Virus record (IMG/VR): IMGVR_UViG_3300001390_000008
Span: 1 to 64,000 of that record
DNA: 64,000 nt
Source of the DNA: a virus
Direction: 5' to 3' (one strand)
The notes below the pieces were generated by a model, which searched no databases, was not told the DNA's origin, and worked only from the letters and a program-made list of their open reading frames with translations. Made by a program: the position numbers and the translations under genes. Numbering within the stretch: position 1 is the first letter of the stretch; every line of letters begins with the position of its first letter. This document shows, piece by piece, positions 2,200 to 63,390 of this stretch.

Positions 2200-3513
2200 C
2201 TACACTTTAATTTCTGTTACTTTAATAAAAGAATTCGCTTTTCCTCCATATACGGGGGCACCTGCCGCGTCTGCATTTATATATGCTGTTCCACTACCTA
2301 CACCCATCCTCAGCTTAAACGTCGTTGCTATTGTGGAGTTTGAAGTATATTCAAAATCAACAAACGCACTTGAATACATAATAGAACCATAGGACATAGA
2401 AACGGCATCAGCTCCTGCATTACTATCCCTAAATAGTGCCATAGCTACTGTATCTTGCTCCCAACTGCCCCACATAACAGCCTGAACGTGCAATATACTA
2501 TTAGCATATTTGGGGGTATACAAGATTGTCGTTATTTCCTGACCTTCTGTATTTTGCGGGATTGTATTATCCCATGGAGTTAGCGCAGTAATAGTTGTTA
2601 CTGTAGTATAGTCTGCTCTTAGGTGGCCTACAACACCGGTTTGGGTAGCACTTATAGAATCCCCTACAACTTCATTTCTAACACCATAAATAACAATAGC
2701 AGTATTTGCTATAAAATTTTCTGCATCCAATGTAGGCCTAATAGTTATCCTATTTATAGAACTAACATTCTGCCAAAACATATTAGTTATATTAACCGAT
2801 AGATTAGTTGGGGATTCTCTACCAGCAAAGGATGTTGAATCGCATAATTTATATCTATTTTCTGTATACCCTTTTATATTAATATATAAATTCCCATAGT
2901 AGGAAGCTAGTGAGGCGTTAGTGCTAGCTTGACCAATAATAGCATCATTAATTGGGTAAAGTCCTACACTGCCCGCCCCATATATAGTTGCTGATTTATA
3001 GTTAGTTGAAATAATATCATTATTGATATACATCCGTATATTATCGTACCCGGTAGCAGCTTCGGTAGTTCTTGCATCTAGTAGCTCTATGTATAAATCA
3101 CCATAACCTTGACTTATATTTTGTATATCAAAAATTCCATCCACTGCTAGAATTTCTTCATATAGTTTAGTTTTTACCTGCTTTATACTTGTCGAGCCGG
3201 CTAAACTAGATTGTAGATCACCCGTAATATCATAAACACCCGTACTAATACAGGTAGTAACTATAGTAGCATTAGTCCCATAAGAAACTAAATTCTTATC
3301 TTGTGGTAAGTTTACTGTTGCTCCTGCTGTAGTAAATGTCTGTAACCCATCAATACTCTGAATAACAAATATATTACCAGCCGTTACCCCAGTAGAGGGT
3401 ATTGTAATTGCGAAAGCACCTGTGCATCTATAGGTTACAGAATCATCCCCCGCCCCTATATCCGCATCTGCTATTGTGAAAATACCTGATTTAGGTACGA
3501 TAGTAGTAGACAT
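2200..3513 (-). CDS. tail fibre / receptor-binding-like protein (437 aa)
   Basis: The first ~95 residues are a beta-rich phage tail-appendage domain (TCTGAFAITIPS-like segment, then GNIFVIQS). The last ~130 residues match a C-terminal head domain recurrent in phage fibres: TPWDNTIPQNTEGQE followed by alternating strands with VQAVMWGSWEQDTVAMALFRD. Such C-terminal domains usually trimerise and sit distally, which makes this the best candidate host-recognition protein here. Known from family: the domain is structural. Inferred: receptor binding. It sits 8 nt after the next gene. Confidence 0.8.
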   Translation of the reverse strand: MSTTIVPKSGIFTIADADIGAGDDSVTYRCTGAFAITIPSTGVTAGNIFVIQSIDGLQTFTTAGATVNLPQDKNLVSYGTNATIVTTCISTGVYDITGDLQSSLAGSTSIKQVKTKLYEEILAVDGIFDIQNISQGYGDLYIELLDARTTEAATGYDNIRMYINNDIISTNYKSATIYGAGSVGLYPINDAIIGQASTNASLASYYGNLYINIKGYTENRYKLCDSTSFAGRESPTNLSVNITNMFWQNVSSINRITIRPTLDAENFIANTAIVIYGVRNEVVGDSISATQTGVVGHLRADYTTVTTITALTPWDNTIPQNTEGQEITTILYTPKYANSILHVQAVMWGSWEQDTVAMALFRDSNAGADAVSMSYGSIMYSSAFVDFEYTSNSTIATTFKLRMGVGSGTAYINADAAGAPVYGGKANSFIKVTEIKV

Positions 3514-3521
3514 ATCGGTTC

Positions 3522-4310
3522 CTACGGGTTAGTAGTTAAAGAAAGACCTAGTGAGAATGTATTTTGAGCACTGGTCAGCCTATTTTCTGCCGGGGTTACC
3601 TTCTTTATCCAAAAAGCATAACTCTCGCCGGCAAGCATTGTTCCTAATAGTAGCCCGGTACTAGAACTACTGGGGGATGCGAAGGTAAGGGCTGATAGTA
3701 CATTAGTGGTATCTTCCGTATCTGCCAGGGGGCCGAGAGCAACCCCATTAAGCCCTGCTGGATCTAGACTAACAGATACAGTATCCGCCACATCTGGCTG
3801 GGCATTAACCCATATTGTTACTTTATATGCAGTAGCCGTAGCGTGATTATTTTGCAAGTAAAAACATCTATATTCTGTATTACCTGCAAATGACTGTACC
3901 TCAGTAATATCATCAAATATATTTTGGGGCACATTTGATATAGTCACTGAATCTTGTGCAGAGGCGGCAGGAAAGTTTGCGTATATCACATCTATTATAA
4001 GATACCCTGCCGCATTTCCTACAGTGTATGTGCCGTCCCCCGTAATATTTTTCCCAGTTCCGTTAGGCGACCCCGGAGGATACCACCACAAAGCGTCTGT
4101 GGACTTTGTATATTGTAAAGTACCTATTCCTTCCGTATTGCCGTAAGCATCTACTACAGTTACCCCAGTAATATTAGTGACCCCGGCAGCACTCTGGCTT
4201 CGTACTTCATTAGGAGTTCCCGCAGAGATAGCCCCACCTATACTTGCTAAAGGGGTTATAACGGCGGGGCCAGAAAATAGCATCAATATATCTGTAATAC
4301 TTATAGCCAT
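3522..4310 (-). CDS. tail protein, paralogue of the 963-2195 fibre C-terminus (262 aa)
   Basis: Nearly the whole protein aligns by eye with the C-terminal ~220 residues of the protein at 963-2195, so one arose by duplication or domain loss. Shared segments include the NITG strand, YRCFY, and the terminal AFWIKKV...NRLTSAQNTFSLGL. Start ATG overlaps the stop of the 823-aa gene by one base (TAATG), implying coupled translation. Likely beta-structured virion component. Confidence 0.78.
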   Translation of the reverse strand: MAISITDILMLFSGPAVITPLASIGGAISAGTPNEVRSQSAAGVTNITGVTVVDAYGNTEGIGTLQYTKSTDALWWYPPGSPNGTGKNITGDGTYTVGNAAGYLIIDVIYANFPAASAQDSVTISNVPQNIFDDITEVQSFAGNTEYRCFYLQNNHATATAYKVTIWVNAQPDVADTVSVSLDPAGLNGVALGPLADTEDTTNVLSALTFASPSSSSTGLLLGTMLAGESYAFWIKKVTPAENRLTSAQNTFSLGLSLTTNP

Positions 4311-6781
4311 TAGTAGACTCCTATCGGTAGATATTTAGTTCCAAAATTTAAAACCTTTTCTAATTCGTCTTTCCCCCCTTGGGGGTCTAGGTTTTTTATT
4401 AGAAAATTTTTAGGCTCATCTATCTTATCCTCTATCTCAGTCATTATAGATACAAACACCCACTCTGTCTCTGTTAGGTCTTTATTTACATGAGTGTACC
4501 TGCCTATGCCAAACTTCCTATGATTGTGTCTTGGTGTGTTTAGTAACATTTTCATACTAAGCCACTCTTCTAATTCCCTCTCAGTATAAATAATCCTTAC
4601 CAACAATGTCGCAGTATCAAACCAATAATAATCCATCACATACGCAGTAGTATGCCAGTATTTATCCTCATTCCATTTTTGGTAATCTAGGTGTCTTCTA
4701 TAATCATAGTATATACGTATATTTATCGCATCATTATGCCTAGGGTTTATTAAAGGCCACATTCCTATAGGCGGTTCTACTGGCACTACATCCCACCCCA
4801 TATCAATTTTCATAAAATCACTTGTATCCTCAGTACTCCACCCGCCATCCCAAGACGTAGTAGTAAAGGTTTCCGTAGTGGCCACTATAGTTCTCCACCC
4901 AAATTGCATAGCAGAAAAATTAAACCCATAACCCCCTGTATTAATCTCCTCCTCTTCTTGTAATTCCTCTCGTAGAATAAAACTATTACCTTCTGGTGTA
5001 CTGGCCTCCACAGGAGAAGCTACCTCAACCACCTCTCTAGTATGCATAATACGCATCCCATTAGTGTTTGGGTCTTGCGTATTATATAAAAAATCATGCT
5101 CCTGTTCTAAATACAAAACTAATTTTTTACGTATATCAAAAAAATGAATAAATCTCTCAGACATTCTTACTGCATATATCCCTTCTTGCCCCCCATTATC
5201 TAACTTCCAGTCAGAATCATACTGTGTCTTAGTTCCCATTATCCATTGGTCTAGAGTAAATTGCTGCGCTCCTTCTGTGGGGTGTGTCCATTTAAGTACT
5301 ATATCCCCTGTCTCATTTTCCCCTATATAGCTGTAATGGTCAGTAAACGTTGTAGGAGTTCCCGGTGCATTAGGGTAGTCATATGCTGGGCCAAAAGTGT
5401 TGCCAGGAGAATCCCCTGAATACTTACTTATATTCCCCCACAACCCCGTCTCCCCGCGCTGATTATTACTTATGTTATATAGTAAAGAGTTCTCCAACGT
5501 AGGGTCATCAACCCCCGCAACAAATTTCTGCTTTAAATCTCTATATTTAGCAAAATGTGCAGTTACCGGTATCTCGATATCCCCTACATAATCCCTAGCT
5601 ACAATAAGCTGCCCAGTAAGCCCGGATGTTATCTCTATAGTATCTTCTTGCCAGTTGTGTGTATGCACCTCTGTATCGCCCTGCCCCGGAAAGAGACCAT
5701 ACCAGCTATCCTCTACACCTCCGTCAGTATATATGGGTAGATGATCCTTCTTCGTAGTATTTGTAAATACTAGCTTATCCCCCCATGTGCCTTCTTGATT
5801 AGCTACAGTGTCGAGAGCTATCTTTGCAGTAGCCATATCTGTTACATAGCATTTTAATAAATACTGCCCATCTTCCTTTACATTACTCTGCCCATTATTG
5901 AAGCTGTCTTCAAACCTACGGGAAGCTACCGCCTCCGTACCAGACTCATTAAAAAACCATGGTGTCTCTGGGGTGTAGGCATTGGGTTGCTGAGGAAAAC
6001 TAAACAAAGACTCCCAACCAGACGGGTTATTCCCGCCCTTCATACTCTTGAAGGAGGCCCGTTTACTATCGTCCATATCCCCCTTTTTTATTGTTTCTGC
6101 CGGGTAGGGCCTACGGTACAGTATATCTTTCAAACCATCTTTACATATAGCCAGTAGCCACTTTTCATCTATCTCTAGCAGTTCCCCTGTTATAGGGTCA
6201 TATTGCTTATTCCCGTTTGCATCTAAATCAGGAACCCTCTCTATACGAAAACATGCACCTAATACCGGTTTAGGCGCAATAGCCAGATATCTACCTTGAT
6301 AATATATTTCTTCATGTGAGGTATCTGCCCCATAATAAAAATCATCAACATGTGCGGCAAAATATCTCATAGGGGGGCCATTGTAGGATATGCGCTCACG
6401 CCTCTTCTCTATAGCCCCTGTGCGCGTCCCATTACTATCTAATAGATAGGGGCCTATCCAGTCTATATTGCCATACACTTGATCTCCGGGGGCCTTAGCC
6501 CACACCCACTTATATTGCTGAGTCTTCTTATCCAAAGCCCTATAAAGGTGCTTTATTGCGTCCTTACCGCCAGAAGTTCCGTATGGCAGGTCTTCATATT
6601 CCGGTACAGCAGGATCTGCCCATGTATTTACGGGTTTCTTCTTAGCAAATGGCTTACCCCAACCTGCAGGGTTAGAGTCATCTACGGGGAAAAACATGAA
6701 TCCCTCTGCCGGGGGGTACTCAAAATTCTGTACAAGGCTGAATGGCCCTATTACATTTTGCCCTTGCCAGTTAATAGCCAC
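4310..6781 (-). CDS. large distal tail / baseplate protein of unknown fold (823 aa)
   Basis: Very Trp/Tyr/Asp-rich soluble protein with long polar stretches and no signal or membrane helix. N-terminus WQGQNVIGPFSL; a centre with GLFPGQGDTEVHTHNWQEDT; an acidic EEEEIN patch near residue 620. No enzymatic motif stands out. The position between small tail proteins and the fibres, and its size, fit a central tail tip, baseplate or wall protein. I cannot assign a named family. Confidence 0.75.
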   Translation of the reverse strand: MAINWQGQNVIGPFSLVQNFEYPPAEGFMFFPVDDSNPAGWGKPFAKKKPVNTWADPAVPEYEDLPYGTSGGKDAIKHLYRALDKKTQQYKWVWAKAPGDQVYGNIDWIGPYLLDSNGTRTGAIEKRRERISYNGPPMRYFAAHVDDFYYGADTSHEEIYYQGRYLAIAPKPVLGACFRIERVPDLDANGNKQYDPITGELLEIDEKWLLAICKDGLKDILYRRPYPAETIKKGDMDDSKRASFKSMKGGNNPSGWESLFSFPQQPNAYTPETPWFFNESGTEAVASRRFEDSFNNGQSNVKEDGQYLLKCYVTDMATAKIALDTVANQEGTWGDKLVFTNTTKKDHLPIYTDGGVEDSWYGLFPGQGDTEVHTHNWQEDTIEITSGLTGQLIVARDYVGDIEIPVTAHFAKYRDLKQKFVAGVDDPTLENSLLYNISNNQRGETGLWGNISKYSGDSPGNTFGPAYDYPNAPGTPTTFTDHYSYIGENETGDIVLKWTHPTEGAQQFTLDQWIMGTKTQYDSDWKLDNGGQEGIYAVRMSERFIHFFDIRKKLVLYLEQEHDFLYNTQDPNTNGMRIMHTREVVEVASPVEASTPEGNSFILREELQEEEEINTGGYGFNFSAMQFGWRTIVATTETFTTTSWDGGWSTEDTSDFMKIDMGWDVVPVEPPIGMWPLINPRHNDAINIRIYYDYRRHLDYQKWNEDKYWHTTAYVMDYYWFDTATLLVRIIYTERELEEWLSMKMLLNTPRHNHRKFGIGRYTHVNKDLTETEWVFVSIMTEIEDKIDEPKNFLIKNLDPQGGKDELEKVLNFGTKYLPIGVY

Positions 6782-10947: not shown

Positions 10948-13900
10948 TATGCTATACCTTTTTCAAGTCCGTTCATTACATCTACAAAAGTCTCAACGGC
11001 ATCAGCCGCCCCGTATAAGGTGGATTCCTTGCCATTAAGAGTAATGTTTAAAGTAGTTACATTACCTACCTTACCAGACCCGCCACCGACAAGCCCCCCT
11101 CCAGCAAACGCGGGTAGCCCGCCTTTCATTTTTGGCCTACGCCCTGTTTTTGCAAGTGCTTGCAATCCTGAAAAAAAGCTGCCACCAAAGAACCTTGTGG
11201 TTATAGCATCCATAACAAACTCACCGTTAGATAACCATGCAGGTATAGAATCACTTGTTGAGGAGCCTGGCCCACTTACCTGCCCCCCAGAAGAGTACCC
11301 TACAATATTGTCGCCTGTATTAGTTACCTTACCATCAGCCCCTACTACACTGGTTATTATACCCCTAAGCTTTATATCCATCACGCCTAAAGCATCTATT
11401 CCTGTTTGTATCTGTACAGGATCAGGCTCAAGCTCCACCGGTAATTTCAGATTTGCAGCCTCTATGGCCCCCGCAACAGATTTAGCATATTCATAAGCAT
11501 TATTACTGTCAAAATCTATTTTAAGCTCTTCCTTTAACTTAGCATTAAACACTTTACTATAATTATTTGCATTAGCATTAATACTATCAAAGTCCAGTTT
11601 AAACTCTTCTTTGAATTTAGCGTTAAACACATCACTGTAGTCTTTTGCATTAGCCCCACCCGCCGCTATAAGTGCATCATGCCATTTAGTAAACCGATCT
11701 AATGCAGAATCACCAAAGGCCTGCCCATACTGAGTGCCCGCCTCTCTACCCTGTGTATAGAAATCTTTTCCTTGTGGGCCTTTTACCTTTAACTCAACGG
11801 GAAACTCAAAATCGTTAAATGTTCTTAATGCTGCATCTGCCCTTCTCTTCGCATCTAATGGATCTATTGTAAGACCAATCGTTATTTTACTGTCAGGGCT
11901 TTCTTCAAGATTACGTACCCCCTCTAAAACGGCAGTATCGTCTGGGGTTAAGTCTACGATAACTTTGGGGGGGTCACGATTAATTAGCTCTTGTATATAC
12001 TTGAAAGTATTTGCAATTTCTATATCTATTGGATCGGCAGCAAATGCTAGCTGTAATTTCTTTACAAGATCTTTACCCTCATTATCAAGTAATTCAGGCA
12101 GTATTTTTACAGGAATAGTAGTATCTGCTGATGCGGGGGAGAGAACAAAATCAAGCAACCCGGATAGTAGGCCTTTATCTTTATTGTCTATACTGGCTAC
12201 TATAGTAGCGTTTATCTTACGATTATCCTCAAGATTCTTTAGTGTGGTTAAATCATCCCCAACTAAAGAGATATCCACAGTTACTGGTACCTTTTCTGCA
12301 CCAACAGAGGTGTTAAGGCCACTATTAATGGCTTTTTTTATATCATTATCTATTTCATCCCCGTTAATATCTACATTTAACTCATAAGTGTCTGTAGCCC
12401 TTTTAAACCCATCTTCTACCCCATCCTTTATGCCGTCAGATACCGTTTTAGAGGTGGTACTTTTAAAAGCCTCTATCTTTTCTTTAGAGGGTATCCATGG
12501 ATTATTTGTTATATTATCCGGGGTACCTATAGCCCTGTGGGCATCTCGTGTTTTTTTACCCCCCTTTAACCCGGCATCACGATCAGCCTCTGCCTTTGTT
12601 AGCCTCTTTACGGCTTCTCTGTAAGCATCTATATCAACTACATCTTCTTTTGTAATAAACTTCGGGAAAGCCTTCTCTAATTGCTCACCTCTATAATTTA
12701 TATTAGACAAATAGTTAGACAATTCTTTTAATTTTTCAAGTACATTCTCCAATTTAGTTTCTAGGTAGGTGAGTACCGTAGTGAAATCCTCTGCCTGTTT
12801 TATTGCCGCAGTCTTTATAGTTTCTGCTGTACTACTAAGACCTGCCTCTAACTCTTTATCAAAAGCTAAGTAGTCCTTCTTGAGTTGCTCAAATTCCTCT
12901 TTAGGTATAAGGAATTCTGACTCTCCTGCATAATTAATCCTACGCAAGTCCTTTAGTTCATTTAATAGCCCCTGTCTACTCTTAAATTCTTCCTTAGAAT
13001 CCTTGCGTAAGGCTCGGGCACGATCTACCTCTCCTTTTTGTGTCGCAGCATCGACGTCCTTAAGTAATTGTAGCGACCTCTTCCTATTTGCTACTAGTTT
13101 TTCTTCTAGTTCATTACGACGTAAGGTAGATATCTCGTTAAGATTGTCCCCTTCAAGTAATTTTAACTGTTCTTTTAATTCAGCCTCTACTGCCTTTCTT
13201 GACCCTTCCCCACGTATTTTTATTTTTTCTTTTGCCTGCTTACGCAATAGATCTTTTTCTTCCTCTAAAGAATCGCTTAGCTCCTTACGGGCTTTTTCCC
13301 CACTTATAGTTAATTCACGATCTTTTAGCCCCTGATCGAAGTCTACAAGAAAATCTTGCAAATTATCCCTAAGGGCAACAAGCTCATTACCTACATTATT
13401 ATATGCAGATATAGCTGATTTTTTGTAAGCTAATGTAACACTTGTCAATTCTTTTTGTTTTGCTACAGCTTGTGCCAGGGCGACTTTTTCTATCTCTAGT
13501 GCAGAGGCTGATTTTTTATATGTTTCTATTATATTTACCCCAGATATATTTAACCCTTTCTGCGCCTCCATTGCTGCTTTTAAAGCTATACTAAACTGTT
13601 TTATTTTAGCAGCATCCATACTCCCTATAAGCTTATCAATTAGCTTCTGCTGTGTGGGGTTTATATTAGATACACGTTCAGGTTTAAATTGGTCACCACG
13701 ATTAAGGTATTTATTAAGATTATCGCTAGCTGCTCGGTAATTATCGTTTAGCTTACTCCATCTATCATTTAATACTCCAAGCGTCTCCGTCTCATTCTCT
13801 AAATCCCTTTTATTATTAGGGTCTACTAAACCCCCATCTACCGGTATCCCAGCTAAATTTCTATATTGATCTATTTCTTTAATTATTTTTTCTTGTGCTT

Positions 13901-53034: not shown

Positions 53035-55962
53035 TCAATGTCTATCCGTATCACTTCGCTCACCTGCATCACTTCTGCCGTCGTCATGCATATCACTATC
53101 TGTCCCCCCATTTGGCATAACCCACGAAGAGGCCCTACTAAGTAATAAATTATATGCACCACATAAAGAATCGGCTGCATCCTTTGCCCCGATTATACTA
53201 TGATCAACTTTTCCTTCTTTACCTTTATTTTCATCAAATTCTAAAGACAATAATTCTTCCAGTAGTACGGGCTGATTATATAGCAGTATGCGCCCATCAT
53301 AAAAGGCATCACGTAATTGGCGGTAAGGGGTGGGGGATCTGTCTACGGATATAAGGCCGGTCTTCATCCCCTGTCTCTTCCATGCTTGCCTGGATTCAAC
53401 ACTATTATACCCATCATAACTGACCGCCTTAATAGGATACCCATATGTGCTATATAGTAGCTTTATCCATGAACGTATATTTGCCACATCTACTTCATTA
53501 CCGTGGTCTGGCTGAACGGTCATACACATTTCCATGGATACAAGGGGCAGTGCCTCCTGCTCCCCGTCCACCCTCTCTACCCATTGTAGGCCGTCAAACC
53601 TAACCATACATATCCCTGTTCTATCTTGTGTAGAGCTTAAATCAATATGTACATATCTGGGTTTACCTGGATTACTACAAAAATGCCCCTTAATAGGTAG
53701 AGGTAGGCCTTGGTGCCTTAGTATTATGTTATCTTCCGGTAAGAAGGACTTTAAGCCCGCTTCTTCGCCTTTTGCCACACATTGCATAACCTTCTGGGGC
53801 TGCCTTATAAAAGGCGATATAGCGTTCGTAGAGAGGCCGGATATATCCCGTAGTGCTTTGGTGGGGTTTTTAACGAATTGCTCTCTGTACTCCACGGGCA
53901 CCTGTATAACGCGGCCCCCAATAGCCTTCTCATTATCCCCCATAACACGCACAGACATAGCTGCATCACTACCAATAAACAAGTTAAACTTATCCCCACA
54001 AAACCTGTTCTGCGGAACTACTTCATATTGAGCATACCCGAACACAAAAGTAGTGCTTATGTGCTCCCTGCGTACAATCTCTTCTAAGCGATCGGTGTAG
54101 TCCCCCTTGTACCTTGTAGAAGATGAGCAGATAATCATCCCCACCTGTGGGCCTGGCAGGGTAAACCGGCTTTTACGACGTGTGCTAAGGGCATCATGTA
54201 TAGCTTCTGCCTGATCATACTTAGATGATCTGCCCATACTGACGCGTACCTTCTTTGATCTCTCAATAACACTCATGAAATTTACTTCATCTATTAGAGC
54301 AAAAATCATAGCTTCGCCTAATGCCGCATCATCATCTGCCCCGCCTGGAACCACACGAATGTTTTGTTCTACAAAATACATTTCAGAATCTAATAGTTTA
54401 TCGGGCCTCATGTTCTTGCGAAACCACGGCATAGTCTCTATATACTTTCGTAGGGGGGCATAAACTACTTTCTTGGTAACGTGTGGTTTTGCCGCTTGAA
54501 TAATAAATAGAATAGAAGTAGCAGAGGGTAGGCCCCAATAGGTCTGGGGGGTTTTCATGCACCCTAATATATGCAAATGATAGGCTATTGTAATTTTAGC
54601 TAATTCCGTGTTGTGTGTGACAGTAAAATCGCCCAGCAAATATCTATGATCCCCCCCAATTACAACCCCATAATAATTACCCTTTCCTATAGGCTCTACC
54701 TTAAACCCTGTTACAAGTACATCTTTTTTCTGCCCCCTTACCGGTGCCTTTTTATTAATTGATAATGTAGGTATTAGATGACAATCGCCACTTATAAATA
54801 CACGATAATAGATGCCAGTAAATCCTGTTGATTTTATACCTTTAATTACCTCTTTCTTATATGCAGCGAACCCTAATGATCTGCATAAATAAACAGCCTG
54901 ATCTGCAAAGCATTCATCCTTAGCTATAAAATCAAACCCACCACATGATAGGCGGCCACCCCCGTCTAATATCCCGGCTAATAATTGTAATCTATTTTTC
55001 CTGCTGTTTATTAAATACTCTTTTGGTATCCTTCTTCTATGTAGATAATCCGTTAATGACTCTCTTATATCGGCAAATCCCAAAAGGCTAATATCCCATG
55101 CACCTCTGTCGTAGTTTACCTGTCCTATCTGTACATGCTTCTTTACCCGCTCTAGGCAAAGTAATTTATTACCCCCCAAAGACAGAGCACTACGGTATTT
55201 ACAACCATCCGCTAAATACAGACCTATGGTGTAAGGGTCAAATACTTTAATCTCCAGGAACTCTACGCCTACACGATATTGTTTATGCAAGTGTTTAAAT
55301 GTCTTTGATTTATTCAAATATTCTTTTACTGTAATATTTACTATATCCCCTGCATACCTGTCCCCACTTCTTATTTTAGTACGTTTAAGGCTCAGTATAT
55401 GATCTGCATTACATGTCCATGATTCCCCTTTAACAGGGGTAATACGGTACATATCGCCATAACTTTCATTAGCTTGTAATACTGGTTGCGGGTTTGACTC
55501 CGGCCCCATTAAAACATCGCCCTTGTTTATATTCTGGGATAGCTTTATACCCCCATCATATAATAGTACAGGGACGTCCACCCCTAAGCACTTTCCGGTA
55601 CCTGTTGCGCGAGAGAATATAGCCTGGTCATAATGTTTATCCGCGCCTTTCCACCAATGGCTATTAAGCTCAATAACCGCCTCTCTTACTTTAGGCCATA
55701 GTTTTAGATCTGTGGAGCCCATAAACTGATCAGAATCTATAAATTCTTCTATGGATACGGGGGGCTGTTTTAAGTGTTCTATGAAATTTAAAAAGTTATG
55801 GTTATTATGCATTGCTGCTTGCTTTATTGCATGAACATAAAATTCAGCAAACATTTTATTATTTAATGTACTAACAGAGGCCTCGGCAGCATCTATCATT
55901 AACTGCGCTTTTCTTGTCAGATTACCGCTCTGGGTAGCCAACTTTCTTTTACGTCTAGTCAC
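53035..55962 (-). CDS. terminase large subunit with P-loop intein (975 aa precursor)
   Basis: DNA-packaging ATPase/nuclease. Precursor carries an intein at residues 125-451; the spliced protein would be ~648 aa. The P-loop reads GTGK (residues 121-124) and, after splicing, T; Walker B is ALIDEVNF. The nuclease part has YVHIDLSS, SYDGYNSVESRQ and a late DAADSLCG acidic motif. Follows the small terminase by 47 nt. Start MTRRKRK. Far (28 kb) from portal, which is unusual. Confidence 0.96.
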   Translation of the reverse strand: MTRRKRKLATQSGNLTRKAQLMIDAAEASVSTLNNKMFAEFYVHAIKQAAMHNNHNFLNFIEHLKQPPVSIEEFIDSDQFMGSTDLKLWPKVREAVIELNSHWWKGADKHYDQAIFSRATGTGKCLGVDVPVLLYDGGIKLSQNINKGDVLMGPESNPQPVLQANESYGDMYRITPVKGESWTCNADHILSLKRTKIRSGDRYAGDIVNITVKEYLNKSKTFKHLHKQYRVGVEFLEIKVFDPYTIGLYLADGCKYRSALSLGGNKLLCLERVKKHVQIGQVNYDRGAWDISLLGFADIRESLTDYLHRRRIPKEYLINSRKNRLQLLAGILDGGGRLSCGGFDFIAKDECFADQAVYLCRSLGFAAYKKEVIKGIKSTGFTGIYYRVFISGDCHLIPTLSINKKAPVRGQKKDVLVTGFKVEPIGKGNYYGVVIGGDHRYLLGDFTVTHNTELAKITIAYHLHILGCMKTPQTYWGLPSATSILFIIQAAKPHVTKKVVYAPLRKYIETMPWFRKNMRPDKLLDSEMYFVEQNIRVVPGGADDDAALGEAMIFALIDEVNFMSVIERSKKVRVSMGRSSKYDQAEAIHDALSTRRKSRFTLPGPQVGMIICSSSTRYKGDYTDRLEEIVRREHISTTFVFGYAQYEVVPQNRFCGDKFNLFIGSDAAMSVRVMGDNEKAIGGRVIQVPVEYREQFVKNPTKALRDISGLSTNAISPFIRQPQKVMQCVAKGEEAGLKSFLPEDNIILRHQGLPLPIKGHFCSNPGKPRYVHIDLSSTQDRTGICMVRFDGLQWVERVDGEQEALPLVSMEMCMTVQPDHGNEVDVANIRSWIKLLYSTYGYPIKAVSYDGYNSVESRQAWKRQGMKTGLISVDRSPTPYRQLRDAFYDGRILLYNQPVLLEELLSLEFDENKGKEGKVDHSIIGAKDAADSLCGAYNLLLSRASSWVMPNGGTDSDMHDDGRSDAGERSDTDRH
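54610..55590 (-). other. TerL intein, class 1 with LAGLIDADG domain (327 aa)
   Basis: Starts with Cys, ends with His-Asn before Thr (+1). Block B is CNADHILSL and the C-terminal block is YYGVVIGGDHRYLLGDFTVTHN-like (two halves). Endonuclease motifs: TIGLYLADG (intein residues 121-129) keeps its Asp, but LAGILDGGG (204-212) has Gly where the second catalytic Asp should be. Splicing residues are intact. Insertion separates the P-loop Lys from the Thr. Confidence 0.92.
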
Positions 55963-58349: not shown

Positions 58350-58898
58350 TTATTTGCATAATTGCATAGAACATCCGTTTAGCGCATCAATTCTGTACTT
58401 TTTCCTAGCTTTTCTACAATCTATATAAGCTATGCCCATTTGCATTAGAGCAAAAGCATCCGCTTCATCATTGTGCGGGATATTGTACCCCCATACATCC
58501 ATGATTGATTTAATAACATCATCTTTAGTTGAATTCCCCTTTCCTGTAGCAAATTTTTTAAGACTGTGCGGCGGGACTAATAATACATCAACCCCTCTCC
58601 TATATGCAATCAATTTCAATAATCCAAGCTCACCTATATCAAAAAATCGGCCAACACCGCCCCCCCTTTTCTTAGGTATACCCATAGCATACCCCTCATA
58701 AACAACTAAGGGCGGGGCCTTATAGTAGATGACCATAGTATTTAATATAGACTCAAAAGACTCCGCCACAAAATCCAGTCTGGGTGCCCCCCTGGTCTTT
58801 GGTCTTATCCTGCCTGTATGCACCTCACCGGTACTGTCAGTATACGCAAAACCAGAGCTGGTCAATGAGGGGTCAAACCCAACTACATTACTATTCAT
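58350..58898 (-). CDS. RuvC-like Holliday junction resolvase (182 aa)
   Basis: RNase H fold resolvase: GFDPSLTSSGFAY (D9), VVYEGYAMG (E68) and HNDEADAF (D144, D147) give the four acidic metal ligands. Nearest relatives are phage RuvC-like enzymes. Would cut recombination or replication junctions before packaging. Ends in a hairpin-forming 3' region (arms 58335-58344 and 58362-58371). Confidence 0.9.
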   Translation of the reverse strand: MNSNVVGFDPSLTSSGFAYTDSTGEVHTGRIRPKTRGAPRLDFVAESFESILNTMVIYYKAPPLVVYEGYAMGIPKKRGGGVGRFFDIGELGLLKLIAYRRGVDVLLVPPHSLKKFATGKGNSTKDDVIKSIMDVWGYNIPHNDEADAFALMQMGIAYIDCRKARKKYRIDALNGCSMQLCK

Positions 58899-59586: not shown

Positions 59587-60516
59587 TTAATCCTTCCAAG
59601 CAAAGCACACACTGCACATCTCACAACTCACAGCCCGCTTATCCCCCTTTGTACGACATGCTTTATAGGGTAATTTACCTCCCTCTCTGGCTATTTTTAA
59701 CTCCATTGCTTCCTCTTTATAATCCTCTATTCTACACAAATATTCTTGAGGATCTAGGACAAATTCCTTGAAAGGTGATTTACCGAATACATAACTCTTA
59801 GTAACATAAAATACGGACACTTGTTGGTGTATTGCATACCCCATTTCTTTTGCCAGCCACCAGTAAAATATAATCTGTAATATATGCGCGGGCAATGGTG
59901 CAGTTAATGCCTCCCACGCTTCATGCTTTATAGACTTGATTTCACTAAGATATAGCAGACCGTTTATCAGATGGGCTAGATCAACCGCCCCACTTATCAT
60001 GTACTCGTCATTTGTTAATAGTAGTTCTTCATACTTGGTAGGAAGCTCTCCACATTTAGAGCAGGTTGCTGGCCCTTTCTTTGTGGACATAGCCTTATTG
60101 TATGTCCCTACTACCTCTGTCCCCCCACAATAGCACTGCCATCTACCATATATTTCCTCTGGGTTATTTCTTATTGCTTTAGCCTTAACATAGTCATGTA
60201 TGGCATTACCTATAGCGAAAGTAACCCCAGTATTATCGTAGAGTGCCTCACCGTGTAAATCTACCTTTGTAACGTATGACAAGGCAACCATACGCATACA
60301 CTTACCTATAATATCAGATACATGGGTATACTCACCGTACCTAAACCCATTCATCTTAAATACCCCAGATAGCCTGCTTATAAGCACCTCTGGATCATCC
60401 ATGGGTAGTATTATCCCATCGGTTTCACACCCTTCTTTATCCCGTCTATTACGGCGTTTAAGCATCCTGGATACACTAACCCCTCCCGAACTTACCCTTG
60501 GTATTCTTCTAGCCAC
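59587..60516 (-). CDS. Cas4/RecB-like PD-(D/E)XK nuclease with Cys cluster (309 aa)
   Basis: Nuclease core: H108, ISGAVDLAHL (D179), SEIKS (E192, K194) and the QIIFY motif (Q214). C73 with C298, C301 and C304 (and C287) fit the four-Cys Fe-S cluster of Cas4/AddB-type nucleases. An extra CYCGG...CSKC pair (residues 128-155) inserts a zinc finger between H108 and D179. Likely a 5'-3' exonuclease feeding RecA. No CRISPR array or cas gene nearby. Confidence 0.88.
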   Translation of the reverse strand: MARRIPRVSSGGVSVSRMLKRRNRRDKEGCETDGIILPMDDPEVLISRLSGVFKMNGFRYGEYTHVSDIIGKCMRMVALSYVTKVDLHGEALYDNTGVTFAIGNAIHDYVKAKAIRNNPEEIYGRWQCYCGGTEVVGTYNKAMSTKKGPATCSKCGELPTKYEELLLTNDEYMISGAVDLAHLINGLLYLSEIKSIKHEAWEALTAPLPAHILQIIFYWWLAKEMGYAIHQQVSVFYVTKSYVFGKSPFKEFVLDPQEYLCRIEDYKEEAMELKIAREGGKLPYKACRTKGDKRAVSCEMCSVCFAWKD

Positions 60517-60528
60517 TAACTCACTCCT

Positions 60529-60882
60529 TTATCTCTCTATAAAATGTAGTGCATAAGTAGGAATAATAGCTATCTCCATCTCGGGGGCTCCCCTTTCATC
60601 AATGAACTCTATAACTATGGCTGGTATCTCTGTATTACATAGAGCAGCCTCCTCTATCTTGTTAAGCATATCTCTGGTAACACTAAATGATTTATTCTTA
60701 GTAGTCTTTGCCTCTATGCGGATAATACCATAGCACCCTTTAACATCACCTTTTTGGTGCCCAGACCCAGAACCGGGAACTAATGCACCTTTAAACCTAT
60801 TTGCTAATTCTAGCTCCTGTTTGGGGGAGCGTACATGGGATACACTCTGCTTACCCCGTTCGCTTTTAGGTATCTTAAGCAT
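60529..60882 (-). CDS. small PD-(D/E)XK nuclease-like protein (117 aa)
   Basis: GSGHQKGDVKGCYGIIRIEAKTTKNKSF: D..(8-12)..ExK pattern plus preceding basic helix typical of archaeal-resolvase- or VRR-like folds. Could resolve junctions or nick DNA in the recombination block. One-base overlap with RecA stop region. Confidence 0.72.
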   Translation of the reverse strand: MLKIPKSERGKQSVSHVRSPKQELELANRFKGALVPGSGSGHQKGDVKGCYGIIRIEAKTTKNKSFSVTRDMLNKIEEAALCNTEIPAIVIEFIDERGAPEMEIAIIPTYALHFIER

Positions 60883-63062
60883 TAAGTAATCCTACATATA
60901 AACTCATTAGGCATACCTAACTTTTCTGCCTGCTTGCGTATAATGTGGGTACGTAATTCCCAATATATATCGGGCTCCTCACGTAACATTTGTATAGCAT
61001 CTTCCTGTAGACTAAACTTAGTTTTATAGTCTAGAAATTCTAACCACTGATTTGCCCCCGCCCCACCCACAAAACCAAACTTCTTTGCTACTGAAAATAC
61101 AGTACGTGCATCATCTACATCCCCTACACCCATACCTGTTTTTTCATCAGGATCCCTTATTATAGTAAACTCACCTGTGCGAGGGCCGTTATTCATTTTA
61201 TTTTTAGTTATAGTATATGAATGTTCATTATGTGTGATGGTTTCCATTGCATTAGTATCGTTACCTTTTATCTCCCTATTTTTCATAATAATATCAAAAC
61301 TAGTAGCGTGGCCCAGCGCCCGGCCCCCTGGAACCTTTCTAGGGTTCATACCATGACCTCCAATATCACTCCTAAATTGATTGGTATTAACTAGTGTTAC
61401 GTAGTGATTTCGCCGCCTTTCCTCTATCATAATAGAAGTAGTCTTGCGTACAAACTCTGCAATAAGCCTGGCGTGGAAGGCAACAAGATGATCTTCTGCG
61501 CTGGATTCTCTTTCTTTCATTGGTTCCATAGCTGCGATAGAATCTACGACTACTAGGGAGGTTTCTACGGACTGTAGTATAGCATCTGCAATATCAAGTG
61601 CCATCTCACCTGTCTCGCATTCAATAACCTCTAAAGCATCTATATCCACCCCCAACTTTTCTGCCCATACACTTTCAAAAGTACCTTCGGTGTCTAGTAC
61701 AATAACTTTTTGATCTGGAAATTGCCTCTGTGCATTAGCTATTATCTTATTAGACAACATACTATTATGTGTAACTATATAGTCTTGTGTAATGTATAAA
61801 TTGTCTTCTGCCTCAATGCTAATACAGACCATATCACAATCTTCATCTGGCACTATATGTGAGATGGATCTTACTGGCCCTCTACGCTTTCTACCGCCAT
61901 AAGCCTCTACCTTTTTCTTACACGCCTTAAATGTGGGCACCCCCAAAGGCAGCACAATAGAAACTGTTTGCTCGTACACCTCATCTTCTTCTCTGTAACT
62001 TTGACTAATAGATGCAGTTCCCCCTAGTGACTGGGCTAACTCCTGAACACCTAATGCTAATTGCCTTGAGTACGAGTGATATCTAGCCCCTGCATAATGT
62101 TTATCTTCTTCCTTATTTAAATATACTGTAGACCCATCACAATCCATTAACCCGTTTAATAAAGAAATTCTGTCATCAATAGAGGCTCTTAAGTAGACTT
62201 CTGGGATAAACTTATCCCTAGATAATTTTCCCCATATACCTAAAACTCTAAGACTACTTATTGTCGTATTCCTTTTCTTTTTTTCTACATCAAATACCTT
62301 CCAGTGTCTAGTACCCTCCACGTAGGTTCTTTCTGCTACGATTACCCCACTGCCTCGTATTAGGCTATTTACATAAGCTAAAACATCTACATCATTTGTT
62401 GCTATATCTATACTCCCGGCCAAATTACCATTAGCTAACATTACCCCCATAAGGTAAGGGTTTATAGGTAGATTCTCACTATCAAAAACCACAGGAGATA
62501 CCAAAGGTATCCTATATTTACACATACCAGAATTCTTATCCCTTAGCCTACTATGAAATAATTCATCAGTTGTTTTTATAAAATGATTACCTGAGGTATG
62601 CGCTTGTTTCCTAGACTGAACATGCCATAGATGATCTTTCCCAACTACAAGCTCAGACTTATCAGTAAACGCTACTTTGTATGTGTGTATTCGCCCTCTC
62701 GGATATACTCCCGTGACTCTGGTTGCATGTCCGTCTGCCCCAATAACTAAATCGCCTACGGACAAATCTCCAAATAAACACCACCCATCAGGGGTCAGTA
62801 TATTATCCGTATATTTTTGGGCCTTCCCACAGTGTTTTTCCCCGAGTATGTGTGAGGATCTACTACACCCTATTCCACCTAGTGTTGAAAAATCTAGAAC
62901 AAAGATGCCCATAGAAATTCTATCTGGCTGTAGTATCTGCGAGCCCTTCCTTACAGAAGTATCCCCATACCTTTTTCTGACTTGATTTAGTGTATCCTTT
63001 AGCTCATTAGTCTTTTTTTCTTTCTTAACTGACTTCTTAGTAGACTTTCTACGCCTAGCCAT
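60882..63062 (-). CDS. recA: RecA recombinase with P-loop intein (726 aa precursor)
   Basis: Phage RecA/UvsX-like strand-exchange ATPase. P-loop GEKHCGK, interrupted before its Ser; Walker B SLVVVDSIAAM; ATP-sensing and pairing segments (LVNTNQFRSDIGG, PGGRALGHATS) follow. Spliced length ~373 aa. Start at MARRRKS (GAGAG upstream), with an 8-nt overlap with the upstream gene; a longer frame exists but lacks an RBS. Basic N-terminus. Confidence 0.95.
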   Translation of the reverse strand: MARRRKSTKKSVKKEKKTNELKDTLNQVRKRYGDTSVRKGSQILQPDRISMGIFVLDFSTLGGIGCSRSSHILGEKHCGKAQKYTDNILTPDGWCLFGDLSVGDLVIGADGHATRVTGVYPRGRIHTYKVAFTDKSELVVGKDHLWHVQSRKQAHTSGNHFIKTTDELFHSRLRDKNSGMCKYRIPLVSPVVFDSENLPINPYLMGVMLANGNLAGSIDIATNDVDVLAYVNSLIRGSGVIVAERTYVEGTRHWKVFDVEKKKRNTTISSLRVLGIWGKLSRDKFIPEVYLRASIDDRISLLNGLMDCDGSTVYLNKEEDKHYAGARYHSYSRQLALGVQELAQSLGGTASISQSYREEDEVYEQTVSIVLPLGVPTFKACKKKVEAYGGRKRRGPVRSISHIVPDEDCDMVCISIEAEDNLYITQDYIVTHNSMLSNKIIANAQRQFPDQKVIVLDTEGTFESVWAEKLGVDIDALEVIECETGEMALDIADAILQSVETSLVVVDSIAAMEPMKERESSAEDHLVAFHARLIAEFVRKTTSIMIEERRRNHYVTLVNTNQFRSDIGGHGMNPRKVPGGRALGHATSFDIIMKNREIKGNDTNAMETITHNEHSYTITKNKMNNGPRTGEFTIIRDPDEKTGMGVGDVDDARTVFSVAKKFGFVGGAGANQWLEFLDYKTKFSLQEDAIQMLREEPDIYWELRTHIIRKQAEKLGMPNEFICRIT
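61764..62822 (-). other. RecA intein, class 3 type, with LAGLIDADG domain (353 aa)
   Basis: First residue is Ala, not Cys/Ser. The W/C/T signature of class 3 inteins is present: W66 in block B (GKDHLWHV), C333 in block F (MVCISIEAED) and T351 before the final His-Asn; Ser is +1. Endonuclease motifs: LMGVMLANG (124-132) has Asn at the catalytic Asp position while LNGLMDCDG (222-230) retains Asp. Inserted at the same P-loop position as the TerL intein. Confidence 0.92.
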
Positions 63063-63390
63063 TATCACTCTCAGTACTAATGTACTGCTCCACTTCATTC
63101 TCAAGCATCTCACTTACCTGATCTGCAATAGCCTCATAAGTCTCGTTCACCATTTCTTTATAACATGGCATCATAATAGATACATCTACCCGCAGGAACT
63201 CATACTGAGCTAAACTACGCGTTACCCCTGCCTTAACACTGACATAGGCGGGATCGACATCAAACACTTCAACCTCTTTTGTTACTAGTTCGGTTTCCTC
63301 GCCCTTTACTACTGAAGTAGTTACCGTCTTTGTAGACATAACTACTATCTTTTCCTTACTTTTTCTCTTACGCTTTTTCCGCTCTGCCAT
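63055..63390 (-). CDS. conserved phage protein upstream of recA (111 aa)
   Basis: Basic head (ERKKRKRKSKEK) then VKAGVTRSLAQYEFLRVDVSIMMPCYKEMVNETYEAIADQVSEMLENEVEQYI, matching a conserved phage protein with V.AG.T.....E..RVDV. Its role is not known; adjacency to recA suggests recombination/replication. Stop overlaps the recA start by 8 nt. Confidence 0.75.
   Translation of the reverse strand: MAERKKRKRKSKEKIVVMSTKTVTTSVVKGEETELVTKEVEVFDVDPAYVSVKAGVTRSLAQYEFLRVDVSIMMPCYKEMVNETYEAIADQVSEMLENEVEQYISTESDNG

Follow-up and report, generated by a model that had tools for sequence, protein, structure and literature searches.

A predicted class 3 intein, equipped with a LAGLIDADG domain, that splits Walker A of a diverged phage RecA

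The gene considered here raises the question what kind of insert divides the ATP-binding loop of a phage RecA, how the insert would be removed and from where it came. The virus record that holds it, a single metagenomic contig, is 93,804 bases long, and its bases 1-64,000 form the window, i.e. the whole stretch of DNA that was analysed and to which all positions refer unless stated otherwise. The open reading frame (60882-63113, minus strand) comprises 743 stop-free codons and would in its longest version start with GTG 63113, while the likely start of the precursor is ATG 63062, which overlaps the gene upstream and is preceded at a distance of approximately 8 bases by GAGAG. Taken together, it is very probable that this gene encodes a phage RecA interrupted by a spliced class 3 intein, which bears a LAGLIDADG domain and has its ancestry in helicase-type P-loops. 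The precursor is composed as follows:

60882-63062, minus strand: phage RecA precursor with intein, 726 codons from ATG 63062 plus stop (Pfam RecA, PHROG 97)
62823-63062, minus strand: RecA N-extein, which ends within Walker A with GEKHCGK (aligned with uninterrupted phage RecAs)
61764-62822, minus strand: predicted class 3 intein of 353 aa, with a LAGLIDADG domain set into its HINT splicing domain (junctions, alignment, Pfam and fold)
61761-61763, minus strand: Ser+1, putative second nucleophile, which would become the Mg-binding Ser of Walker A once the exteins are joined (junction sequence; Thr or Ser at +1 in 70 of 80 relatives from viral contigs)
60882-61763, minus strand: RecA C-extein with Walker B and the remaining ATPase core (RecA profile match)

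The extein is a RecA according to Pfam (PF00154, 8.7e-31), with a match over its C-terminal half and over a short stretch on the N-terminal side, and the precursor matches the UvsX-like recombinases of PHROG 97 (5e-46). The PHROG 97 profile gave no match to the intein alone, hence the known UvsX family represented there does not include the intein. The ATPase-core residues GEKHCGKS (once spliced), DTEGTF, LVVVDS and NQ are kept in the extein; Walker A (once spliced), Walker B, the catalytic Glu and the Gln that mark a member of the RecA family are all present. Judged by its sequence the host is a diverged phage RecA/UvsX-like protein, because the interrupted protein scored 114.9 bits with the bacterial RecA equivalog TIGR02012, far under the curated cut-off of 325. 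Furthermore, the gene is part of a recombination operon, and its order RecA-HJR-Cas4-RuvC is shared with the Rhodobacter phage RcKickapoo:

60529-60882, minus strand: Holliday junction resolvase (PHROG 2002, 5e-20)
59587-60516, minus strand: Cas4-like exonuclease (PHROG 2506, 1e-43)
58350-58898, minus strand: RuvC-like resolvase (PHROG 159, 4e-29)

The intein runs from AQKYTDN to YIVTHN and is preceded by GEKHCGK and followed by SMLSNK. Uninterrupted phage RecAs read through this site, for example with GERHSGKTT in the viral loci L096 and L143 (50% identical over the whole protein, the highest value among them), hence splicing out the insert gives GEKHCGKS. A first-pass annotation of the sequence had placed the intein at 62822-61764, had numbered its key residues W66 and C333 and had described Walker A as split into GEKHCGK and S; the coordinates and residue numbers proved to be exact, and the split is borne out by the comparison with the uninterrupted phage RecAs. 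The altered endonuclease motif, the Cys at extein position -3 and two further P-loop inteins of the phage, all described below, had escaped that annotation. Because the intein parts the P-loop Lys from the Mg-ligand Ser, and in view of the precedent of RadA, where a P-loop intein was reported to disrupt the ATPase activity (PMC6195587), we consider it a reasonable inference that RecA would be unable to bind ATP before splicing.

Class 3 inteins lack the N-terminal nucleophile and are recognised by Trp at B:12, Cys at F:4 and Thr at G:5 (WCT), together with His at B:10, Asn at G:7 and Ser or Thr at +1 (PMC3196547, PMC5222942). The RecA intein shows A1, H64-L65-W66, C333, T351-H352-N353 and S+1; the Ala at the beginning, the Trp after His-Leu, the Cys of block F and the Thr before His-Asn with the following Ser, all of which had been noticed at first sight, are thus found at the exact junctions. 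The intein was aligned with 114 homologues (phage records supplied 10 of them, viral contigs 80 and closer scans another 24), and the columns conserved among them indicate that the signature residues are not due to chance:

62631-62633, minus strand: His64, block B:10 (114 of 114 relatives)
62625-62627, minus strand: Trp66, block B:12, class 3 signature (110 of 114)
61824-61826, minus strand: Cys333, block F:4, which would start splicing as nucleophile and serve as branch point (114 of 114)
61764-61772, minus strand: Thr351-His352-Asn353, blocks G:5 to G:7 (Thr in 113, His in 114 and Asn in 114 of the 114)

The first column of the alignment is variable among the relatives (A in 49, G in 11, Q in 9, others in the remainder), and class 3 DnaB inteins that have been characterised carry their signature residues in the corresponding columns. 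Another Cys at the block F position would have spoken against the early assignment; the only other one nearby, C329, was rejected, since it is situated four residues upstream of C333 and outside the conserved column. Hence, the proposed class 3 membership is supported by all sequence features of the class; alignment and predicted fold agree with it, and the tree, with its single class 1 row, is compatible. On these grounds the assignment to class 3 is close to certain and the intein very likely splices. Regarding the family as a whole, four of the 114 relatives have Phe or His at the Trp position, so the W of WCT is not absolute in it. A simple search did not show the H-x-W pattern of block B in the relatives L024, L064, L071 and L081.

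The predicted structure is consistent with this assignment. The intein was modelled with AlphaFold together with ten residues of the N-extein and eight of the C-extein; the model reached a mean pLDDT of 92 and a pTM of 0.92 and displays the Hedgehog/intein (HINT) fold. In Foldseek searches, the best match of the whole model was PI-SceI (E 2e-19), the splicing domain matched the class 3 inteins MchDnaB1 (6rix/6riy, 30% identity) and MsmDnaBi1 (6bs8, 26%), and the endonuclease part matched I-DmoI. By alignment with MchDnaB1, for which a Cys-His-Thr triad was described in the structure paper (PMC7664689), Cys333, His64 and Thr351 are predicted to form the catalytic triad. Cys333, packed by Trp66, would then attack the bond between Lys(-1) and Ala1, giving a branched thioester at block F; the N-extein would pass to Ser+1, Asn353 would cyclise, and ligation of the exteins would join GEKHCGK to S, restoring a whole Walker A and an active RecA. 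Since the intein sits where a failure to splice would leave RecA without ATPase, the selection on splicing would be strong.

One may ask whether the intein serves the phage as a regulator rather than being a neutral parasite, i.e. whether ssDNA on RecA, or oxidation through a disulfide between Cys333 and a Cys at extein position -3, controls splicing:

62829-62831, minus strand: Cys(-3) in the Walker A loop GEKHC-GK (counted among RecAs and class 3 hosts)

This residue is rare, as uninterrupted phage RecAs have Ser at the position in 66 of 68 cases and Cys in two, and a count over 92 GK-type class 3 hosts gave no Cys(-3); moreover, it would lie close to the scissile bond. There are precedents for both kinds of control: in the class 3 P-loop intein DnaBi1 of M. 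smegmatis a disulfide between the block F Cys and Cys48 turns splicing off (PMC6195587), and RadA P-loop inteins, whose host is likewise a recombinase of the RecA family, are activated by ssDNA (PMC5790916). However, the partner Cys48 of DnaBi1 is absent from the RecA intein, where Thr47 aligns, Cys(-3) could be neutral, and a delay would bring little obvious gain to a lytic phage. We regard such a conditional switch as rather unlikely.

The second domain of the intein belongs to the homing endonucleases:

61908-62471 (approximate limits), minus strand: LAGLIDADG homing-endonuclease domain (Pfam LAGLIDADG_3, 3.9e-6; Foldseek PI-SceI, I-DmoI)
62430-62432, minus strand: Asn131 in place of the catalytic Asp, motif 1 LMGVMLANG (Asp in 95 of 114 relatives, Asn in 19)
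62136-62138, minus strand: Asp229, catalytic Asp kept, motif 2 LMDCDG (114 of 114)

The LAGLIDADG fold is present in the model, but of the two motifs, each of which carries a catalytic acidic residue in an active endonuclease, only the second has retained it. The loss of one of the two LAGLIDADG Asp residues normally abolishes double-strand cutting. Hence, the endonuclease that would once have driven the spread of the intein has lost one catalytic Asp, and an ordinary double-strand cut would probably be impossible; the intein may persist because it splices precisely and is inherited vertically, with nicking as another possibility. The motif 1 variant ANG is common to 16 inteins, with MDCDG, MDGDG or MDADG as motif 2. 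Fourteen of them form a clade (support 95/90), namely the RecA intein and those of L054, L055, L077, L238, L240-L246, L249 and L255, while the ANG inteins of L239 and L256 are placed elsewhere on the tree. A single origin of ANG was rejected, as the distribution of the 16 ANG rows over the tree requires three or more changes. The persistence of the ANG domain across the lineage could possibly be explained by nicking, by another metal ligand or by a structural role. Combining nicking with the regulatory idea, one could imagine a recombination switch in which the ATPase of RecA stays off until ssDNA, or reduction of a disulfide between Cys(-3) and Cys333, frees Cys333, while inteins of the ANG lineage, with one catalytic Asp left, nick their target and home by nick-dependent recombination, possibly run by RecA itself; we consider this combination distinctly improbable. 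The altered motif could also mark the onset of decay, in which case splicing would be failing or lost and RecA dispensable for the phage, and the inactive class 3 pseudogene Arth_1007 provides a precedent (PMC3196547). Nevertheless, all splicing residues, both exteins and the reading frame are intact, RecA is located in a conserved recombination operon, and ANG recurs across a clade of 14 diverged inteins, unlike what would be expected from recent decay. Therefore, a decaying intein is very unlikely, and a splicing-competent intein with an altered endonuclease remains the preferred reading.

The same phage carries two further inteins:

54610-55590 (TerL open reading frame 53035-55962), minus strand: class 1 intein that splits Walker A of TerL, the terminase large subunit, ATGTGK/CLGVDV...FTVTHN/TELAK
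76551-77408 of the genome, outside the window (12551-13408 of locus L178), minus strand: class 1-type intein with HNH endonuclease domain, which splits Walker A of an AAA+ ATPase, GIPG/C...LIVHN/SGKS

All three inteins found in the phage interrupt Walker A loops, and they represent two classes and two endonuclease types. The P-loop of its DnaB-like helicase is empty. Motif 2 of the LAGLIDADG domain in the TerL intein reads LDGGG, with Gly in the place of the catalytic Asp. The assumption that the RecA intein is a class 1 or class 2 intein carrying W, C and T by chance can be given next to no probability. Class 1 inteins, gp41-1 for example, do have THN and a similar N-terminal sequence, but Ala as residue 1 makes class 1 chemistry impossible. 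Class 2 inteins are without WCT, and KlbA is the only host from which they were reported (PMC3196547). In addition, W, C and T recur in every or almost every one of the 114 relatives, and the class 1 TerL intein of this very phage contrasts with C1, Leu at B:12 and Gly at F:4. As to the remainder of the phage, the capsid protein is closest to PaMx31-like phages of Pseudomonas (~93 kb), with 52% identity. A protein of 437 aa (2200-3513, minus strand) matches the Pgp3 C-terminal domain with its C-terminal part (Pfam Chlam_vir, 2.4e-9) and probably belongs to a tail fibre or a receptor-binding protein. Near other structural genes there is also an open reading frame for 513 aa (3669-5210 of locus L179, minus strand; approximately 82669-84210 of the genome) with many short SGxFxLSGTxAxL repeats.

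Over its whole length, the class 3 RecA intein shares approximately 29-38% identity with phage inteins (587 records matched). The relatives reside in SF2 helicases, terminases, DnaB-like ATPases, primase-helicases and PhoH, and 70 of the 80 relatives from viral contigs (~88%) are inserted at GK/T or GK/S, a count that is biased towards these sites by setting the start to the nearest GK, while the end at THN/T or THN/S was defined independently. In the trees, the RecA intein falls in supported WCT clades, apart from the class 1 TerL intein, which was the only class 1 row. The 54-row tree places it as sister to the primase-helicase P-loop inteins of L238 and L249 (99/90), and these three are nested in a clade of helicase inteins (97/98). 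The simplest reading of these sequence relationships is that the intein moved from a helicase-type P-loop to RecA, and its ancestors would have resided in P-loops of SF2 and SF4 ATPases of phages. The branch of the RecA intein is long (1.4-1.6 changes per site). Its base composition (GC 0.392, GC3 0.309) matches that of the C-extein (GC 0.399, GC3 0.316), hence it gives no support for a recent import. Long branch and matching composition together suggest that the arrival in RecA was not recent.

To judge how unusual the combination is, several collections were considered. A scan of viral contigs with the whole precursor found no relative, therefore intein and extein were searched separately. 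When 50,697 phage records were queried with a chimeric junction sequence, the junction-spanning matches listed were all non-RecA proteins (helicases, terminases and others), and a RecA profile run against the exteins of 104 intein loci found no RecA among them, giving weak matches of which the best were at DnaB-like helicases. The first RecA scan relied mostly on an empty-site pattern and has little weight against inteins. The RecA C-extein, a query that does not depend on an empty P-loop, gave 58 viral loci in which the P-loop was intact or merely divergent without any insert; the one unclear P-loop among them (L203) reads GGESSGKT. The alignment of ANG inteins found only three bacterial loci in genome contigs, none of them in RecA, and a class 3 intein in RecA was not found in the literature searched either. 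Within this material no second RecA with the intein turned up that would speak for a lasting arrangement. Each half of the combination is known separately: class 3 P-loop inteins were described in DnaB, TerL hosts both class 3 inteins and inteins of the P-loop (PMC6195587, PMC5050341), and the P-loop inteins of archaeal RadA are of class 1 (PMC5790916). A class 3 intein in the P-loop of RecA thus appears to be a new combination, with RecA as a class 3 host not seen before within the collections and literature searched, where absence does not amount to proof.

Among known systems, the mycobacterial DnaB inteins (MsmDnaBi1, MchDnaB1 and MleDnaB) resemble the RecA intein in WCT, the missing N-terminal nucleophile, the GK/S site and the HINT fold (26-30% identity), but they interrupt a replicative helicase, are mini-inteins without endonuclease, and the redox Cys48 of DnaBi1 has no counterpart in RecA. 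Phage class 3 inteins (Catera/Alice-type helicase, Bethlehem/Omega-type TerL, viral contigs L016-L095) are relatives along their entire length, with the endonuclease domain included, whereas their hosts are SF2 helicases, TerL, DnaB-like proteins and PhoH, none of them RecA, and their motif 1 is mostly GDG. The sister inteins of L238 and L249 share ANG with the RecA intein and differ in their primase-helicase host. The RecA inteins of Mycobacterium tuberculosis and M. leprae likewise combine a RecA host with a LAGLIDADG domain; however, they are class 1 inteins, are inserted at other sites of RecA and are cellular rather than of phage origin. The inteins of Pyrococcus horikoshii and Thermococcus sibiricus RadA also occupy the P-loop of a RecA-family recombinase (PMC5790916), but they are class 1 (C1), archaeal and without endonuclease, with RadA as host.

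With the present locus, RecA joins the hosts of class 3 inteins, and the recombinase that the phage itself encodes has one in its catalytic loop. The finding supports the movement of class 3 inteins among P-loop ATPases that are not related to one another; in this case RecA would have received its intein from a helicase-type host. Archaeal RadA, an enzyme of the same family, gave the first example of ssDNA-triggered splicing, and a clean comparison between RecA and RadA inteins becomes available, in which loop and enzyme family are equal and the splicing chemistry is different. Moreover, the ANG sublineage offers a testable case of persisting altered homing endonucleases, and three differing inteins in the Walker A loops of one phage provide a natural case for the question why inteins gather at P-loops.
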